A stretch of 6,753 nt of DNA from contig JAJZJI010000064.1 of the NCBI GenBank assembly GCA_021828345.1, forward strand, positions 1-6,753, given 5' to 3'. Under the pieces are notes generated by a model. The model was not told the DNA's origin. It made no database searches and was given only the letters and a program-made list of their open reading frames with translations. The translations under genes were made by a program, and so were the position numbers. Within the stretch, counting starts at the first letter, position 1. Every line of letters starts with the position of its first letter. Origin of the DNA: Microcaldota archaeon. Lineage in GTDB: Archaea; Micrarchaeota; Micrarchaeia; Micrarchaeales; Micrarchaeaceae. Positions 2 through 6,411 of this stretch are shown here, piece after piece.

Positions 2-3000
2 GATAGTCAGAATTTCACCGCATTGAATAGCACGGTTAAAAACAATTACGTTTCACTTGTGAGTAATCAAAAATTCATTGAATCTCTGGTTAATTCATCA
101 AAAACCAGTATCATAGGTATAAGTGATATTATTAACTCTACAGTCCACGATGTTTCAACAAACGTTACCTTATTCCAGACTTATGTGAAAAATACAATAA
201 ACGCAACAATAAACAATATTAATCTCAGAAGCACATTTATTAACGATACTTTAAACACAGTCTCTAACAATGTCACCATATTGCAAGATTATGAAAAGGA
301 TTACATAAACGCAACAATAAACAATATTTATGCTCAAGAGAAATTCACACAAGACATACTTAATAATACAGAAATAACACTTTCATCGAAGTTAAATTTC
401 GTTTCAAATCTCATAAATAGCACAAACACATTTGAATATCAAATAAACCTGACAGGAATACCGTCTGGTACAGGAACATATATGCAATTGGTAAACATAA
501 CTGACCCAGCGAAGTATGGAATAAACACACAAGCTACAAATGTGGTATTTGAGGATAGTTCTAATAACACTATATTAAAAGCTTGGACACAAACAATAAA
601 TTCTACAAAGATGCAAGTATGGATTGATAATTACTATAACAATAGCGTAATAAATATGCTTATTCTAACAGGTTCATTATTGCATTTAAGTAATTTATTG
701 GAATTGAATATGCACTTTTCTGGTTTGTCAGGAACGACAGGAAATGAATATTATGCAACGGCTGGTTTTGGCAATTACATTAATTACACAATACCAAACA
801 GTCTTAACAAAATAACATTTGAAGTAAATACACAGTCGTTGGGAGATTTTTTCATATTTACAAATTCCGCTGGAGAAGGACAGATGTTTAGGCTTGATGG
901 AAGAAGTGATTCGCCTGATACTGGTATTGCGACAACTAACACTTGGTTATCGTGGAATGCACCACCCAACTTATATCAAGCAACTACTAATACTTGGTTT
1001 TTAATATCTCTTACAAATGTAGGTGAAATTTGGGAAGTTAATGTGACAAACGAAACAAGCGGAATAACTACACATATTGAGAATTACACTATGTCATACG
1101 ATGGAGATTATTTTGGATTTATAGGAGATGCAGGTAGTGGAAATACATACTGGAAAAATGTGACCTTTTACACTAAAACTGGTTCAACCATTGATTTACC
1201 TATAATTCCATCTCCAATACCAACTCAGCCAACTTATTTAATTGGAAAAGATATAAACATTGGGAGTTCACTTCTTTTAAATGTTCAGAATTCGTTGAAC
1301 ATAGTTAATGATACAATAGGTTCACTTAACCTTAACCTCACAGACAAAATATCCATTTTAGACTCATTAATAACCAATGAAAATATATCTCTACAGGATC
1401 GGTTAACAACAATCAATTCTACTTTGTCAGTAGTGGACACAAATATAACTCTTTTCCAGACCTATGTAAAAGATACAATAAATGCAACTCTTACACATGT
1501 CAATATCCTTGATGCATTTATTAACAGCACTTTAAAAGCAGTAAATAACAATGTCACTCTGGATGAAAAATTTGTCAATGATACTATACATGCAGTAAGC
1601 AATAATTTAACTCTGTTTAACAATTATGTTCATGATACTATTAATACTACATTAACGAACATTACATCTACAACTGATATTATAAACTCAATTGTTCATT
1701 CAATTTATAGTAACATTAATTTACTACAAGCATACGAAGAAGATGTAATTAACGTTTCCGTAAATAAAATCCAGCTAATTGACACATTTATGAACGATAC
1801 TGTCAATGCAATGAACAACAACGTTACTGTGTTTTTCAATACACAAAACAATATGATTAACGATCTCGCAAACAACATTACACTTAAAGAAACATTTACT
1901 AATGATACAGTGAATTATATAAAATCTCTGGAAACAACAATGAATCAAAACTTAACACTTGCAAACGCCACAATTAAAGAAGTAAAGTTTATTGCATCCC
2001 AAAACTTTACAGCATTAAATAGCACAGTAGCAAATAATTTTGCAACAATAATTTCTAATCAGAATTTTGAGAATGATGTAATTAAAACGGTTAATAATAA
2101 TATTACACTATTTTATCAATACCAGAATGATTTAATGAACAGTACAAAACAAAGCATACTTGTAAAAGAAGCAATATTGAACAGTACAACAAAATTGATT
2201 AATACTAACTTGACATTTGATTATAAAACATTGAACTCAATGATTGGAATAAATAACTTAAATCTAAACCAAAGCATTATATTCTCAAAGAATCTAATAG
2301 ATACAAATAATTTAATATACAAGACAGAACTGGCACTTAATGACTATGTATTATCAGGCGGTTCAGGTGTAATAGTATCTGGCTCTGGGACATCTGTTTC
2401 TGCATACCAGAATGTATTAGATCCATACGAAACAAACACATTTACAACATATTCAAATCTAAGTACCGATCAAAATACAATATGGTTTGGAAATCCAATA
2501 AACTCTTCATATATTAACATAATTATTTCTGATAACCCGTCAATTGCATTGTATTTTGAAAATGCATATACGGGTGAATTAAACATAACATACTATAATG
2601 CAACTGTTGGACTAACAGAAGTAAAAGAATATTATTATAACCTCACCTCTTCCTCATATTTCCCAATCTCACTAAATAAGGGATATTTGGCAAAAGGTTA
2701 TATTGTAAAAATTCAGTTGAATAAGACGGAATTTAAGAGTAGCGTAACACTGCAGAGTGAAATACAATGGGGAGGAGAGATAGCAGATGTTTGGTCTCTT
2801 AATAATGCAACCCATGTATATTCTCTTGATATGAATTTACCAGGTGATGCTGGTTATTATGGTACATTAAATACAAATACATTAGGTGGAGTATTTATGA
2901 ATACCACAAGCCAGATAGAAATGGTAACACAGGGATTTCCAAATGGTCTTTCTCCCTCTGCAGCAAATGTAAAAATTAAGGATGGCTACACTGGTTTATA

Positions 3001-3646
3001 CATGACACTCGGAAATGAATATCAGATAGAATCAAACGGAATTTATTTCCAGAGGCAGAATTACACTTCTGATGTATATTATATTACATTCTTTTTGACA
3101 TCAAATATTACAGTTGGACAGGCAATAAATATCCCTCTGGGTAGTCAAACTGTTCAAAGTTTCAATGGACAAAGTTATGATTATAGGACTGGCACATATC
3201 AGAATCAGCAAAATCAGGCAATAGAGGGAAATTTGATATTGACTTTCCCGACAAATCAGATACCAAATGATATAGTTGTATTAATTGAAACACCAACAAA
3301 TACATACGTTGTATCAAATTCATCAATTTCAGTGATTGGTTCAACTGTACAAGTAAGCAGTATAACTATAAACGCAGGAGAAACTATAACAGTGGAAATT
3401 TATTACCATGTAAAGACTACGAGTACCGCGTCTTTCCTATTTTCACCTATTTCTTTGATAGATGGACTTGACATATGGGATATAATTGGATTATTCCTGA
3501 TTGGCATGGGAGGAATTGTTGCTCAATATTCATACAGAAATAGGAAAAACTTTGCTGTAAAGTATAGGTGGGTATCAATTTACATGGTAGTACTCCTTCT
3601 TTGGTTTATAATAGTTATAGCAAATTCAGGAGGGATATTTACATAA
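2..3646 (+). CDS. Giant glycosylated fibre/adhesin with 18-residue repeat stalk, lectin-like insert and C-terminal membrane anchor (5' partial)
   Basis: The frame is open to the left edge, so the TTG at 23 is only an internal codon; residue numbers here count from it (1207 residues to the stop). Residues 11-136 and 420-746 form a helical stalk of 18-residue units, for example NVTLFQTYVKNTINATIN. Residues 137-about 213 resemble DUF2341 (NVVFEDSSNNTILKAW, then MQVWI), and about 214-392 look like a concanavalin A/LamG-type beta sandwich ending in YWKNVTFY. A Pro-rich linker (393-403) leads back to the stalk. After a Gly/Ser linker (778-792) comes a beta-rich region of unknown family (about 793-1140). 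Two hydrophobic helices (1151-1170 and 1183-1200) flank a basic loop (RNRK...KYR), which by the positive-inside rule places the bulk outside the cell or virion. I count about 57 N-x-S/T sequons. Likely a surface adhesin or viral spike; an archaeal cell-surface protein is the alternative. The signal peptide, if any, lies outside the window. Confidence 0.9.
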   Translation, partial: DSQNFTALNSTVKNNYVSLVSNQKFIESLVNSSKTSIIGISDIINSTVHDVSTNVTLFQTYVKNTINATINNINLRSTFINDTLNTVSNNVTILQDYEKDYINATINNIYAQEKFTQDILNNTEITLSSKLNFVSNLINSTNTFEYQINLTGIPSGTGTYMQLVNITDPAKYGINTQATNVVFEDSSNNTILKAWTQTINSTKMQVWIDNYYNNSVINMLILTGSLLHLSNLLELNMHFSGLSGTTGNEYYATAGFGNYINYTIPNSLNKITFEVNTQSLGDFFIFTNSAGEGQMFRLDGRSDSPDTGIATTNTWLSWNAPPNLYQATTNTWFLISLTNVGEIWEVNVTNETSGITTHIENYTMSYDGDYFGFIGDAGSGNTYWKNVTFYTKTGSTIDLPIIPSPIPTQPTYLIGKDINIGSSLLLNVQNSLNIVNDTIGSLNLNLTDKISILDSLITNENISLQDRLTTINSTLSVVDTNITLFQTYVKDTINATLTHVNILDAFINSTLKAVNNNVTLDEKFVNDTIHAVSNNLTLFNNYVHDTINTTLTNITSTTDIINSIVHSIYSNINLLQAYEEDVINVSVNKIQLIDTFMNDTVNAMNNNVTVFFNTQNNMINDLANNITLKETFTNDTVNYIKSLETTMNQNLTLANATIKEVKFIASQNFTALNSTVANNFATIISNQNFENDVIKTVNNNITLFYQYQNDLMNSTKQSILVKEAILNSTTKLINTNLTFDYKTLNSMIGINNLNLNQSIIFSKNLIDTNNLIYKTELALNDYVLSGGSGVIVSGSGTSVSAYQNVLDPYETNTFTTYSNLSTDQNTIWFGNPINSSYINIIISDNPSIALYFENAYTGELNITYYNATVGLTEVKEYYYNLTSSSYFPISLNKGYLAKGYIVKIQLNKTEFKSSVTLQSEIQWGGEIADVWSLNNATHVYSLDMNLPGDAGYYGTLNTNTLGGVFMNTTSQIEMVTQGFPNGLSPSAANVKIKDGYTGLYMTLGNEYQIESNGIYFQRQNYTSDVYYITFFLTSNITVGQAINIPLGSQTVQSFNGQSYDYRTGTYQNQQNQAIEGNLILTFPTNQIPNDIVVLIETPTNTYVVSNSSISVIGSTVQVSSITINAGETITVEIYYHVKTTSTASFLFSPISLIDGLDIWDIIGLFLIGMGGIVAQYSYRNRKNFAVKYRWVSIYMVVLLLWFIIVIANSGGIFT
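8..2260 (+). repeat. Intragenic 18-codon (54-bp) repeats in two blocks
   Basis: Degenerate tandem 18-codon units make up the stalk. Block A runs from the left edge to 430 and block B from 1280 to about 2260. Approximate unit consensus: N-[VI]-T-L-x-x-x-[FY]-[VI]-x-[DN]-T-[IL]-N-x-[TV]-x-N. Units from residue 420 to 671 keep exact 18-residue phase (14 units), followed by a three-residue skip (672-674) and units at 675, 693, 711 and 729. A matching three-residue skip sits in block A (residues 8-10). The two blocks are paralogous: SQNFTALNSTV occurs at nt 5-37 and again at nt 1997-2029. DNA identity between units is low to moderate, so the repeats are old or under strong codon drift. Confidence 0.85.
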
Positions 3647-3762: not shown

Positions 3763-3777
3763 CCGAGAATTGAAATT
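3763..3777 (-). promoter_or_regulatory. Inverted copy of the AATTCTCGG motif
   Basis: CCGAGAATTGAAATT here is the exact reverse complement of AATTTCAATTCTCGG at 4924-4938. Its core CCGAGAATT also pairs as an inverted repeat with AATTCTCGG at 3821-3829, 49 bases downstream. It may be a protein-binding site belonging to the conserved module, or one arm of a long-range RNA stem. The role is unknown. Confidence 0.5.
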
Positions 3778-3789
3778 ATTTAGCCTAAA

Positions 3790-3853
3790 GGTATAATTTA
3801 ACCTAAAAACAAAAAACGTTAATTCTCGGCTTTTTAAATTAACGCTATATAAA
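3790..3853 (+). promoter_or_regulatory. Conserved cis-module, copy 1
   Basis: The block begins with GGTATAA, then an A-rich spacer, then a 22-bp element at 3821-3842 (AATTCTCGGCTTTTTAAATT plus AA), then CTATATAAA. The 22-bp element is identical at 4930-4951, and GGTATAA sits exactly 31 bases before the element in both copies. TTTTTAAATT or TATATAAA could serve as a TATA box. The element ends 140 bases before the HTH gene start at 3983, so a transcript starting here would carry a long leader. Alternatives are a shared operator or an origin-associated repeat. Confidence 0.65.
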
Positions 3854-3982: not shown

Positions 3983-4405
3983 ATGGGTTTGTCTTACAGC
4001 ATTCAAGATGATGAGATAGTAAAGTTATTCAGGCGAGGTTATAGTATTCGAGATATTGCAGACATTTTAAATACGACTTACGAAACGGTTAAATATCGTT
4101 TAATCAGAAATGGTTTACTGGTACAAAGGGATGGAAAATACTATCCTATTAGGTCGGAAAATTTAGACCAATATATTGAAGAAATAAAACAGATTACGAA
4201 TGAACTCAAACATAACATCGACGAGGAGAAAGACCGTGTTTTAATTAAGAGATTGAAACATATAAGTAAGCTGTTTGGAGAACATAATCCTGTTGGCTTT
4301 GAAATATATAGAGCAACGAAAGAGGCATTAAGAGAAACTCATAAAGACAGTTATAATCTAAATTCACTATACAAAGCAGTTAAGCGATTGGACGGTGAAA
4401 AATAA
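3983..4405 (+). CDS. Small HTH DNA-binding protein with helical C-terminus
   Basis: The 140-residue product has an N-terminal HTH at about residues 9-46: EIVKLFRRGYSIRDIADILN for the first helices and TYETVKYRLIRNGLL for the recognition helix and following turn. The layout GYS..(I)A..L...Y.TV...L...G matches the HTH at 5073-5735, suggesting a common family. Residues 62-95 are charged and probably helical (QYIEEIKQITNELKHNIDEE), possibly a dimerisation segment. The rest is helical and unrecognised. The start is fixed by AGGAGGT at 3970-3976. The gene heads a cluster with the membrane protein starting at the very next base. Likely a transcriptional regulator, perhaps of its own promoter or of the second module-bearing promoter; a role in replication or partition cannot be excluded. 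Confidence 0.85.
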   Translation: MGLSYSIQDDEIVKLFRRGYSIRDIADILNTTYETVKYRLIRNGLLVQRDGKYYPIRSENLDQYIEEIKQITNELKHNIDEEKDRVLIKRLKHISKLFGEHNPVGFEIYRATKEALRETHKDSYNLNSLYKAVKRLDGEK

Positions 4406-4687
4406 ATGAGCAACATAAAAACTCAGCTCTGGAAATTAATAGCCCAGAGGGGTAGAATGAACAGTAATAGATTTAGATTAAAAATGAAATGGTATTCATT
4501 TACAAGTGTTCTTCCTCTTGTATTAACTAATCAAACAAATACATTTTTTAAATTTGTTTATTCTATTTTTCCAATACTTTTTAAACATCCATTTCTATTT
4601 TTTTCATTTATTTATCTAATTGTAATTGTTGCAATTTTTCTATACTTAAAACCTAAAAAACCTGAGATGAATAAGCATGAATTGTAA
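4406..4687 (+). CDS. Small membrane protein of unknown function
   Basis: The ATG follows the stop of the HTH gene with no gap, with a weak GGTGA ahead of it. The 93-residue product has a basic N-terminus (QRGRMNSNRFRLKMK), a moderately hydrophobic stretch at about 30-57, and a clear transmembrane helix at about 59-82 (PFLFFSFIYLIVIVAIFLYL), followed by a short charged tail (KPKKPEMNKHEL). Met18 (nt 4457) is a credible alternative start, since GAGGGG lies four bases before it; that would give 76 residues. Phe content is very high. I recognise no family. The tight packing with an HTH gene and a zinc-ribbon gene suggests co-transcription, and small membrane proteins are common in archaeal viral genomes, but the role is unknown. 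Confidence 0.7.
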   Translation: MSNIKTQLWKLIAQRGRMNSNRFRLKMKWYSFTSVLPLVLTNQTNTFFKFVYSIFPILFKHPFLFFSFIYLIVIVAIFLYLKPKKPEMNKHEL

Positions 4688-4820
4688 AGTATGTCATAAG
4701 AAAGCAATGACAGTCTATGCAAAAGGTAAGGTTAGAAAGTTATTTATCGGATATTATTGTCCAAGATGCAATAGGTTTATACAAAACCCAGATGCACCGA
4801 ATGTTGAGGTTTATCGCTAA
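4677..4820 (+). CDS. 47-residue zinc-ribbon miniprotein
   Basis: The ATG at 4677 lies inside the end of the membrane-protein gene (11-base overlap, different frame), and the stop is TAA at 4818-4820. The product begins MNCKVCHKKAM and continues to GYYCPRCNRFIQNP. It has two CxxC knuckles, Cys3/Cys6 and Cys28/Cys31, with 21 residues between the pairs. This is the classic spacing of a zinc ribbon or rubredoxin-like knuckle that binds one zinc ion. Basic residues between the knuckles (KGKVRK) could contact nucleic acid. Family knowledge suggests nucleic-acid or protein binding, but such tiny ribbons are too short for a specific call. The ribosome-binding site is weak, so translation may be coupled to the upstream gene. 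Confidence 0.75.
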   Translation: MNCKVCHKKAMTVYAKGKVRKLFIGYYCPRCNRFIQNPDAPNVEVYR

Positions 4821-4898: not shown

Positions 4899-4962
4899 GG
4901 TATAACTATACAAAAAACTAAGAAATTTCAATTCTCGGCTTTTTAAATTAATTGTAAATAAA
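4899..4962 (+). promoter_or_regulatory. Conserved cis-module, copy 2
   Basis: The layout matches the block at 3790-3853: GGTATAA, then the identical 22-bp element at 4930-4951 starting exactly 31 bases after the GGTATAA start, then TAAATAAA where copy 1 has TATATAAA. Between the fixed parts the spacer is only loosely conserved. The element ends 121 bases before the start at 5073. AATTTC ahead of the core makes this copy the better match to the inverted motif at 3763-3777. Confidence 0.65.
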
Positions 4963-5072: not shown

Positions 5073-5735
5073 ATGAAAAAAAGTGCAATAAAAGACGTTG
5101 ATAAGCAAGGGAAAACTCTCAAAGAGGGCGGGGATGTAAATAAGGAAAGGCAGGTAGAAGAAACAGCAAATGAGGAGGAGCCAATGATTAACATTAAAAA
5201 TTCGGCTCAATTTGAAAAGTTAGATTTAAGTAATTTAACAGTCGAAGATGAAGAGGAGGAGGAAATAGCAGAAGTCGTAGAAGAAATTGATGAGGAAAGC
5301 AGTTTAGCCCAGAGCATTGCGAGTGCAAATAAACCGATTCTTCTATCTAAAAAGCCCGAGGGTTCAATTAACCCAATACAGATGCAATATGACATTGATG
5401 ATGAATGGTTAAGGAAGCAGTATGTTGATAAAGGCTATTCAGCTAACAAGATTGCTAAAGCTCTGGGAATATCATATCAAACAGTGAGCAAAATTCTGCT
5501 CGCACATGGAATTGTGAGATACAATAGCAATGAGATGTTGAGGTATGAGAACCAAGTCTATTCACTATTGATGGCAAATCCTGATTACTTCATTGAGGAC
5601 GTTGTTGAAAAGCTAAGGATTGATGAACCAACAGTCAGAAAAATATATCAAAATATGAAAGAGAACGGAAAGAGTCAAAAAATAAATGAAGCTCTATGGA
5701 GGAAGAAAAATGAACAAAAAACTGGTAAGGCTTGA
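5073..5735 (+). CDS. HTH regulator with acidic N-terminus and two helix-turn-helix domains
   Basis: The 220-residue product has three parts. Residues 1-105 are charged and probably disordered, with an acidic run at about 58-76 (EDEEEEEIAEVVEEIDEE). Residues 107-149 form an HTH beginning YDIDDEWLRKQYVDKGYS, followed by NKIAKALGISYQTVSKILLAHGI. Residues 158-200 look like a second HTH or winged helix (VYSLLMANPDYFIEDVVEKL, then DEPTVRKIYQNMKENG). The first HTH is clearly related to the next gene (YD[IV]D..WL...YV) and less so to the gene at 3983. The motif is of the type common in phage and mobile-element HTH proteins. The acidic tail could recruit a partner or mimic DNA. Its last 26 bases overlap the next gene, indicating co-translation. 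Likely a transcriptional regulator or DNA-organising protein; the target is unknown. Confidence 0.85.
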   Translation: MKKSAIKDVDKQGKTLKEGGDVNKERQVEETANEEEPMINIKNSAQFEKLDLSNLTVEDEEEEEIAEVVEEIDEESSLAQSIASANKPILLSKKPEGSINPIQMQYDIDDEWLRKQYVDKGYSANKIAKALGISYQTVSKILLAHGIVRYNSNEMLRYENQVYSLLMANPDYFIEDVVEKLRIDEPTVRKIYQNMKENGKSQKINEALWRKKNEQKTGKA

Positions 5736-5940
5736 ACAATATAATCCAAGAAATAAGTTAGCTGTCAGGTATGATGTTGATAGAACATGGCTTTGGCAAA
5801 AGTACGTTAATGAAAAAATGTCATTAAATAAAATGGCTGAGCTTCTTGATATATCTCCACCATCAGTACGCAACTTGATGATTAGATATAATATTCCATT
5901 GAGAAAGCCATTGAAATTTAGAAACCGTAAAAGAAATTAA
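5710..5940 (+). CDS. Minimal HTH protein, paralogue of the preceding gene
   Basis: I place the start at ATG 5710 (76 residues) because GGAGG at 5698-5702 sits seven bases before it; the ATG at 5686 in the same frame has no such site. The gene overlaps the previous one by 26 bases in another frame. Residues 21-65 are a single HTH (YDVDRTWLWQKYVNEKMSLN, then KMAELLDISPPSVRNLMIRY) that aligns without gaps to residues 107-149 of the upstream protein. The tail is strongly basic (RKPLKFRNRKRN), suited to DNA contact. It looks like the DNA-binding core of the upstream protein without the acidic arm or second domain. It could compete with it for sites or form mixed dimers; that is inference. Confidence 0.8.
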   Translation: MNKKLVRLEQYNPRNKLAVRYDVDRTWLWQKYVNEKMSLNKMAELLDISPPSVRNLMIRYNIPLRKPLKFRNRKRN

Positions 5941-5986: not shown

Positions 5987-6064
5987 ATGGGGCAGCTATA
6001 TAAGAGAACCAGCCGAAAGAATTACTGCATTAACTCTCTCAGGGGGTGTTTCCCTTATACGTAA
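5987..6064 (+). CDS. Short ORF, probably the true N-terminus of the following winged-helix protein
   Basis: ATG 5987 has GGTGA four bases upstream and opens a 25-codon frame (MGQLYKRTSRKNYC...) ending at TAA 6062-6064. It overlaps the next ORF by 19 bases. At 6042-6046 is a run of five G and at 6049-6055 the heptamer TTTCCCT, which in this frame is read T TTC CCT, the X XXY YYZ pattern of -1 frameshift sites. A -1 shift there, or one extra G in the run, would join it to the next ORF as one protein of about 141 residues. Alternatively it is a leader peptide or is not translated. Basic composition is consistent with a DNA-binding protein's N-terminus. Confidence 0.4.
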   Translation: MGQLYKRTSRKNYCINSLRGCFPYT

Positions 6065-6411
6065 GTAAATCTACTTTTAAGTATAAAAGACGTAGTTTCA
6101 ATAACGGTTTACCTGTAATTCAACATAAGTTATATGTTCTATTCTTTGAGAACCCTCGAAATATAGAGGATTTTATAGCGGACATTCGTTCTCATAAAAT
6201 ATCTAATAGAACTCTGACGCAAATTAATGATAGAAGACTATTTACTTCTTTTTCCCGTCTAATTAATACACACCCAGAGGTTTTGGTTTATTCTCTCATT
6301 TATGATAAAGAGAGAGTTAAATTAGGAGATATAATAGATTCAAGTGGGCTCGAAAGAGAAACTGTTTTAAAAGCTCTGGAAAAATTAAAGAACATGGGGG
6401 TGGTAGAATGA
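6046..6411 (+). CDS. Winged-helix DNA-binding protein (start uncertain)
   Basis: The only early start in this frame is GTG 6046, preceded immediately by GGGG with no usable spacing, and a stop lies 15 bases upstream in frame. There is no ATG until near the end, so the annotated start is doubtful (see the ORF at 5987). The 121-residue product has a basic N-terminus (FKYKRRSF), a middle region beginning HKLYVLFFENPRNIEDFIAD, and a C-terminal HTH at about 79-121: VLVYSLIYDKERVKLGDIID, then GLERETVLKALEKLKNMGVV. This matches the core of MarR/ArsR-like winged helices (helix, HTH, then a first wing strand), but the protein stops just before the wing. It is coupled to the next gene by an ATGA overlap, suggesting it regulates or partners the ATPase, for example in replication. 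Function not established. Confidence 0.7.
   Translation: MFPLYVSKSTFKYKRRSFNNGLPVIQHKLYVLFFENPRNIEDFIADIRSHKISNRTLTQINDRRLFTSFSRLINTHPEVLVYSLIYDKERVKLGDIIDSSGLERETVLKALEKLKNMGVVE

Follow-up and report, generated by a model that had tools for sequence, protein, structure and literature searches.

A surface protein with an 18-residue repeat stalk, predicted to be helical and nearly straight, probably from thermoplasmatal archaea or their mobile elements

Coiled coils usually follow a heptad pattern, with hendecads as the more familiar exception, and a natural straight molecular stalk built on an 18-residue unit would be unusual. The locus described here raises the question of whether an archaeal surface protein carries such a stalk, how strictly its phase is kept, which fold it takes, and what kind of entity displays it. 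The window, i.e., the whole stretch of 6,753 nucleotides that was analyzed, is an AT-rich and archaeal-looking fragment. Its surface protein gene (2 to 3646, forward strand, 1214 codons in the ORF table) is open at the 5' end; the reading frame is already open at base 2, and the start codon and the head of the protein lie outside the window. The homologues P0001 to P0003 and P0008 are 1606 to 2104 amino acids long and have, by eye, a signal-peptide-like stretch at the N-terminus. An earlier note on this DNA had proposed a helical stalk of 18-residue repeats, and had missed the 5' truncation as well as two features described below, the 36-residue alternation and the 93-residue spacing of three-residue insertions.

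Layout of the surface protein and its neighbors

All features of the protein are given on the forward strand. Residues 1 to 10 (bases 2 to 31) form the in-phase tail of a further unit of stalk block 1, which continues by tiling as seven 18-residue units with no gap at residues 11 to 136 (32 to 409). The region that follows, at residues 145 to 230 (434 to 691), is probably DUF2341-like, as inferred by alignment with P0004 to P0006; the window protein had no match to the DUF2341 Pfam profile (PF10102), and P0003 alone matches it in that region, below threshold (15.5 bits vs a cutoff of 23.4). A putative concanavalin-A-like jelly-roll domain, with a predicted lectin-like fold, occupies residues 231 to 394 (692 to 1183). 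Stalk block 2 consists of twelve 18-residue units (block 2a, residues 420 to 635, 1259 to 1906, from tiling, with an AF2 helix at residues 474 to 653), a three-residue insertion TVN that lengthens one unit to 21 residues (residues 636 to 638, 1907 to 1915, from a placement test and its context in relatives), and seven more units (block 2b, residues 639 to 764, 1916 to 2293, from tiling), the last of which is weak and drops out once profile training excludes the window.

The C-terminal part begins with a beta-rich region in common with P0002 (residues 765 to 1150, 2294 to 3450), recognized by alignment and by AF2 strands whose pLDDT of 61-82 applies to residues 1045 to 1134 only. It ends with two hydrophobic segments separated by a basic loop (residues 1158 to 1209, 3473 to 3628), a probable membrane anchor judged from sequence and low-confidence model helices; P0002 has a similar pair. 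The earlier note spoke of a fiber; a free virion fiber is not supported, and these two segments fit a membrane-anchored spike better.

On the same strand, downstream of the surface protein gene, are HTH genes at 3983-4405, 5073-5735, and 5686-5940, a small ORF of membrane type (4406-4687), a winged-helix ORF (6046-6411), and, from 6408, a helicase-like ORF that is cut short. The HTH genes at 5073-5735 and 5686-5940 overlap and look like paralogues by eye, phrog_8446 and phrog_7545 matching both. A 64-nt intergenic direct repeat (3790-3853 and 4899-4962, 77% identical, core aattctcggctttttaaatta), which is perhaps a shared promoter or operator, sits upstream of two HTH genes and has a partial inverted copy at 3763-3783. 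At 4677-4820, under the size cut of the ORF list, is a 47-residue, zinc-ribbon-like ORF with two CxxC pairs.

The 18-residue repeat and its three-residue insertion

Identity autocorrelation over residues 420 to 671 peaks at lags 36, 18, and 54 (z 6.7, 6.5, and 6.3; 500 shuffles), and hydrophobic Fourier power over the same residues peaks at 3.60 residues; over residues 1 to 145, z is 8.1 at lag 36 and 4.2 at lag 18. The proposed 18-residue periodicity is therefore borne out far above shuffled sequence, in the autocorrelation and also in the tiling, where 60 shuffles of the stalk produced no chain that passed the score floor, and the repeat holds its phase with greater strictness than the note could have made out. 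The period is 18 and not that of a hendecad repeat of the tetrabrachion type, as lag 11 is weak (z 2.1 over residues 405 to 790 and 1.4 over 420 to 671, vs 6.4-6.7 for 18 and 36). The repeat is no recent DNA duplication: both rows from Tandem Repeats Finder fall outside the stalk, and adjacent units are about 21% identical. A profile trained on other proteins only recovered 18 units in block 2 (residues 420 to 746, with one +3 insertion) and seven in block 1 (11 to 136), where one frame scores well (94 bits, starting at residue 11) and the remaining 17 are negative.

The phase itself had been described somewhat differently, as 14 consecutive copies over residues 420 to 671 with three-residue skips at residues 8-10 and 672-674. 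We find exact phase for 12 units only (420 to 635), the longer stretch including the +3 insertion. Using a profile of 622 units from other proteins (P0018 excluded from training), the seven local units scored 101 bits with the insertion at 636-638, 68 at 654-656, 4 at 672-674, and -124 without any insertion. Residues 8-10 correspond to positions 16-18 of an ordinary unit. They share the letters LNS with residues 672-674 and both lie at equivalent unit ends, and to that extent the two places do correspond, but neither is a skip. Any +3 insertion in block 1 would fall before the window start, and there may be one there, because in P0001 both SQNFTALNS units follow a +3 insertion at the distance seen in block 2. 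The large hydrophobic residues occur at unit positions 2 (96%), 9 (90%), 15 (88%), 16 (71%), 5 (56%), and 13 (52%) in 163 family units, a list close to the 2, 5, 9, 13, and 16-17 first suggested.

The training set (the window protein and six relatives, tiled with permitted gaps of 1 to 10) holds 163 units in nine chains of 7 proteins, and its 154 junctions comprise 147 exact and 7 +3 junctions. With a leave-out profile and a stalk-composition background all 7 proteins tile, and 60 shuffles of each gave 0 chains over the floor. A protein search with the P0008 stalk returned 24 proteins, 21 of them new, and the stalk family now numbers 28 related proteins, window protein included. Tiled without retraining, all 21 held-out proteins gave chains, with 541 units and 516 junctions (487 exact, 19 +3, and 10 others); the 10 odd junctions, which were counted and not dropped, are all in P0018, where the tiling runs across a globular stretch that looks DUF2341-type. 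Shuffling the held-out proteins (20 per protein) left no chain over the floor, nor did any of 14 control proteins without the stalk give a chain, these being stalk-less head or lectin relatives, three SIRV1 proteins, the G012 protein, and a G226 neighbor, with P0018 outside training.

The insertion has a conserved context. All 19 held-out cases read TVN, TIN, or TIT, then x-Ile-(Lys/Asn), and the seven in the training set are TVN (three), TIN (two), TAN, and TVS. At least one insertion occurs in 15 of the 28 proteins; given the kinship of these proteins (74% identity between P0001 and P0007), junctions and insertions across the family are not independent events. Where insertions succeed one another within a chain (7 proteins), 10 of the 11 intervals measure 93 residues, i.e., 5x18+3 (P0001, G226, P0015 twice, P0019, P0023 three times, and P0029 twice), and the remaining interval, in P0008, is 165 residues, or 9x18+3. 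The longest gap-free run in the 28-protein set is 46 units in P0016, which by arithmetic would measure about 124 nm if helical. Several relatives also show a 36-residue alternation, clear in P0002 and weak in the window protein.

Fold and geometry of the stalk

Structure prediction makes a helical stalk likely. For residues 474 to 653 (six sequences), the best of five AF2 models is a single helix spanning 2-178 of 180 residues at pLDDT 83.6; the other four had pLDDT 70.5, 70.5, 64.9, and 55.5, secondary structure being viewed for the best model only. A near-full-length AF2 run (11 sequences, mean pLDDT 40.5) rendered much of the stalk strand-like at pLDDT 21-43; the beta-rich stalk that the earlier note had named as contrary to its proposal did appear, but at that very low confidence. 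According to PMC11676326, AlphaFold does badly on long or non-canonical coiled coils when the full length is modeled and improves when shorter windows are used, and the discrepancy between our full-length and fragment models fits this report.

The strand labels bring up a different fold, a beta-solenoid in which each unit forms one 18-residue coil, with Asn-Ser/Asp and Asn-Asn at the turns, and some members lean that way: part of the family has a hydrophobic alternation 5-7-9-11-13-15, the P0002 stalk segments are dominated by harmonics 2.0, 2.25, and 6.0 and are not helix-like, and the NCBI name of P0014 mentions beta strand repeats, though perhaps in reference to its head. We nevertheless consider a beta-solenoid unlikely, given the single helix of the best fragment model and the near absence of Gly and Pro (4 Gly, 0 Pro, and 0 Cys in the 471 residues of the stalk blocks). 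Solenoid loops are usually variable in length, and in the stalk the only indels are +3, which we count against a solenoid; three of the four sub-threshold PDB neighbors of the stalk profile are also helical, among them SKA1 and HR1, whose folds are helical. In coiled coils, +3 is among the insertion sizes that are understood best (PMC4786415).

From the sequence by itself, the case for a helix is suggestive and not decisive. Every 18-residue repeat has 3.6 among its harmonics, and 4.5 and 2.25 are strong here as well; since such a repeat fixes where the peak falls, the 3.6 peak alone is no proof of helix. By large hydrophobics, 3.6 is the strongest harmonic in 8 of 11 segments, with 4.5 strongest in block 1 of the window and 2.0 in both P0002 segments; on the Eisenberg scale it leads in 6 of the 11. 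In the family profile 3.6 has a share of 0.36; 3% of column permutations attain that value, and in 30% one harmonic or another is as strong. Asn, Thr, Ile, and Val do not form helices readily, which counts against a helix.

The 36-residue component could also reflect an alpha-solenoid of 36-residue helical hairpins, TPR-like in length, in place of a continuous helix. Lag 36 equals or exceeds lag 18 in many stalk stretches and the A/B alternation is clear in P0002, but the window units alternate weakly, the best fragment model runs 177 residues without a turn, no Gly or Pro stands at a fixed turn position, and a three-residue insertion would be expected to upset the hairpin register; on balance, hairpins seem to us very improbable.

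In the continuous helix that we prefer, each rod would be a long alpha helix with a hydrophobic stripe 2-5-9-(12/13)-(15/16), and several copies would bundle side by side with little supercoiling, their number and orientation likewise being conjectural. As 18 residues make five turns (3.60 residues per turn vs 3.63 of the free helix), the stripe would run nearly parallel to the axis. By arithmetic the drift per residue is about 0.8 degrees for an 18/5 coil and 3.7 for heptads. At the former rate block 2 would complete less than one supercoil turn; if helical, its 345 residues would extend for about 52 nm at 1.5 A each. The +3 insertion would create a local stretch of 21 residues, i.e., three heptads.

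The 18/5 geometry is already in print: the theory passage of PMC4786415 places 18 residues over 5 turns near the ideal straight helix (3.6 vs about 3.63), names this periodicity as a possible outcome of a delocalized stutter, and gives +3 as the size of a stammer. Like the 18/5 (7+7+4) arrangement of that passage, the stalk would place 18 residues over five turns, its strong positions 2, 9, and 16 being spaced 7, 7, and 4; unlike it, the stalk runs for 7 to 46 gap-free units and recurs as a family trait. For natural 18-residue coiled coils, our literature search, one query of which was swamped by fatty-acid papers, yielded only this passage, an outcome of little weight. The core idea of an 18-residue helical, almost straight stalk survives and is strengthened by the held-out relatives: the spacing of 18 or 18+3 in 28 proteins is observed and Gly and Pro are scarce as noted, while helix and straightness stand as predictions from the fragment model.

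Comparison with known structures gave one suggestive case. The stalk profile was searched against 177,635 distinct PDB sequences, and its four best matches (E 0.3-2.6) are not significant. The second best, 4tql (E 0.43), is deposited as 'Three helix bundle' and is, we presume, a design, artificial and charged. Over the 80 matched residues it has an 18-residue repeat of its own (47% identity at lag 18) and aligns with the stalk without gaps, its core positions in the stalk register, although this match is not homology. The hydrophobic profiles of the two correlate at 0.72 at the aligned register, the highest of 18 shifts, and when the proteins are examined one by one, this register is again the best in 6 of 7 and second in P0002; since it comes from the same profile alignment, the agreement is one of consistency and no independent proof. 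Foldseek of the helix model found no match in the PDB, single-sequence PDB matches were weak and included non-coiled proteins (polymerases, and a dehydrogenase for P0002), and Pfam returned only weak sub-cutoff coiled-coil names (Cor1 0.33 and TACC_C 0.029 for P0001).

Two archaeal surface proteins are similar in design. Tetrabrachion of Staphylothermus marinus, in the description drawn from PMC5744192, is a glycoprotein stalk of 70 nm with beta-rich arms, and resembles the present protein, itself a putative glycoprotein, as a stalk bearing beta-rich parts; it differs in its 11-residue repeats and right-handed tetramer, and no sequence relation is shown. SlaB of Sulfolobus, as presented in PMC10903991, is a glycoprotein anchored in the membrane, its beta domains carried by a coiled coil that is predicted to be trimeric. 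The present protein would be alike in combining a membrane anchor, a coiled-coil stalk, and beta domains, whereas the SlaB helix has 132 residues.

Glycosylation, carriers, and possible origin

Block 2 contains 26 Asn-X-Ser/Thr sequons, whereas shuffles of the same composition average 13.5 +/- 2.9 and none of 2000 reached 26; the excess in block 1 is not significant (8 vs 5.2, p 0.11). The 163 family units hold 236 sequons, most often at positions 17 (74), 8 (64), and 3 (43), which on a helical wheel lie 103, 77, and 143 degrees from the hydrophobic center, and 21 sequons are at position 12, just 37 degrees from it. We infer from these motifs that the stalk is glycosylated, and because the sites would be mainly on the flanks and back of the helix, the rod is probably sheathed in N-glycans.

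Relatives point to the Thermoplasmata. A Thermoplasmata MAG encodes a relative of the lectin region (47% identity), P0014 is labeled Thermoplasmataceae archaeon at NCBI, and an alignment of four relatives matched 21 of 400 Thermoplasmata genomes, mostly by head parts of the model. The stalk profile matched 4 of 400 genomes of the class and 5 of 389 of the phylum (three shared); G416 was among the matches, and of the five genomes inspected G226 and G438 bear 18-residue stalks, while the matched parts in G207 and G032 were not flagged as periodic. The G226 stalk protein has 1409 amino acids. Upstream of it lies an 858-aa protein (L015 7245-9821) with weak PHROG tape-measure matches, perhaps mere coiled-coil similarity, in which we found no 18-residue chain. 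The fifth, G012, encodes another surface protein (L024 825 onward, 3290 aa), which has a beta-helix-like N-terminal part with lag 23 and about 700 sequon-rich residues with a hydrophobic period of 3.58 and a local 36-residue duplication; tiling found neither a strict 18 nor a chain in it.

In G438 (L032), of the same phylum, an 8779-aa frame, of which 4167 residues were read, alternates lectin-type domains with sequon-rich 18-residue runs; the one such domain tested is Laminin_G_3 (E 1.2e-21). Without retraining, it gave gap-free chains of 13, 9, and 8 units and longer chains of 28 units with gaps 7 and 11 (sum 18) and 19 units with gaps 7 and 4. Retraining on G438 itself gave gap-free runs of 16, 16, 21, 48, and 22 units, of which the figure 48 depends on retraining, the retrained tiling having strung units across globular domains so that run ends include some globular residues. 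The G438 unit profile correlates at 0.75 with the family profile, by which its phase was seeded, and the likeness may be due either to homology or to convergence.

The stalk protein may belong to a cell or to a mobile element. It may be a cellular S-layer protein or adhesin with nothing viral about it, in which case the window would come from a plasmid or a genomic island; such a reading bears on origin and is compatible with the helical one. Such an origin would suit the giant G438 protein with its alternating Laminin_G_3 domain and stalks, the respiratory-looking genes on the contig of the G226 stalk relative, and a lectin-region relative on L002 whose contig carries, by eye, dnaK-like and other chromosomal-looking genes. 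It is less easily reconciled with the window, where several HTH genes and the helicase-like start are accompanied by no recognized housekeeping gene, with a head relative in G211 that lies in an integrated-element-like region (phage integrase, resolvase, and tRNA-Asp), and with SIRV1 ORF580, which matches the lectin domain. We regard a purely cellular origin as a serious candidate that is nonetheless the weaker side of the argument.

The likeness to ORF580 consists in the concanavalin-A-like domain (42% identity over residues 240 to 384, E 0.01), homology past this domain not being found, and tiling gave no 18-residue stalk chain in ORF580, ORF1070, or ORF417 of SIRV1. ORF417 (L001 6550-7803) has a local repeat of about 20 residues of its own (lag 20 identity 0.43, form NSYI..II..QL..AI). 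The G211 head relative (1985 aa) is without a stalk by tiling. Around it, a provirus-like element of about 25 kb at tRNA-Asp (L013, L014) contains genes for a phage integrase, a resolvase, an AAA-type ATPase (phrog_22963), DUF5131, and secreted proteins; the tRNA-Asp overlaps the integrase end, and the element lies between amidohydrolase and phosphoesterase genes.

Broader scans revealed no relative in viral contigs, with single sequences (whole protein, helicase-like fragment, and C-terminus) or with alignments, or in genome contigs with the stalk protein alignment, all of these being weak negatives with few short patterns. Plasmids gave no match, P0001 gave none against phages, and PHROGs had nothing for the long protein.

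Taken together, we think it probable that the locus encodes a membrane-anchored, sequon-rich spike, borne by Thermoplasmata or by mobile elements of theirs, whose concanavalin-A-like domain sits on an 18/5 coiled coil that is nearly straight. It would be a large surface glycoprotein, probably anchored in the membrane at its C-terminus, in which two rods of 18-residue units alternate with globular domains, and the concanavalin-A-like domain, likely a sugar or receptor binder, would be displayed tens of nanometers from the membrane.

More tentatively, and with slightly less than an even chance in our estimation, a general type of stalk may have arisen in Thermoplasmatota and their viruses or elements: a parallel helical bundle, nearly untwisted and sheathed in N-glycans, with up to 46 gap-free units, built in some members of 93-residue modules (five 18s plus 3, 26 turns). 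If so, the stalk would be a natural counterpart of designed straight bundles, the +3 insertion would be a periodic correction of residual twist, or a joint, and the giant Laminin_G protein in another genome of the phylum would be a related or convergent version. Exact spacing of 18 over hundreds of junctions, broken by a single kind of insertion, of three residues, would be a natural case for testing how helix bundles escape supercoiling across 50-120 nm, and the family could test whether dense N-glycans fit a bundle at fixed angular positions. With the 18-residue unit as a signature, one could also search for surface spikes in thermoplasmatal viruses and cells about which little is known.
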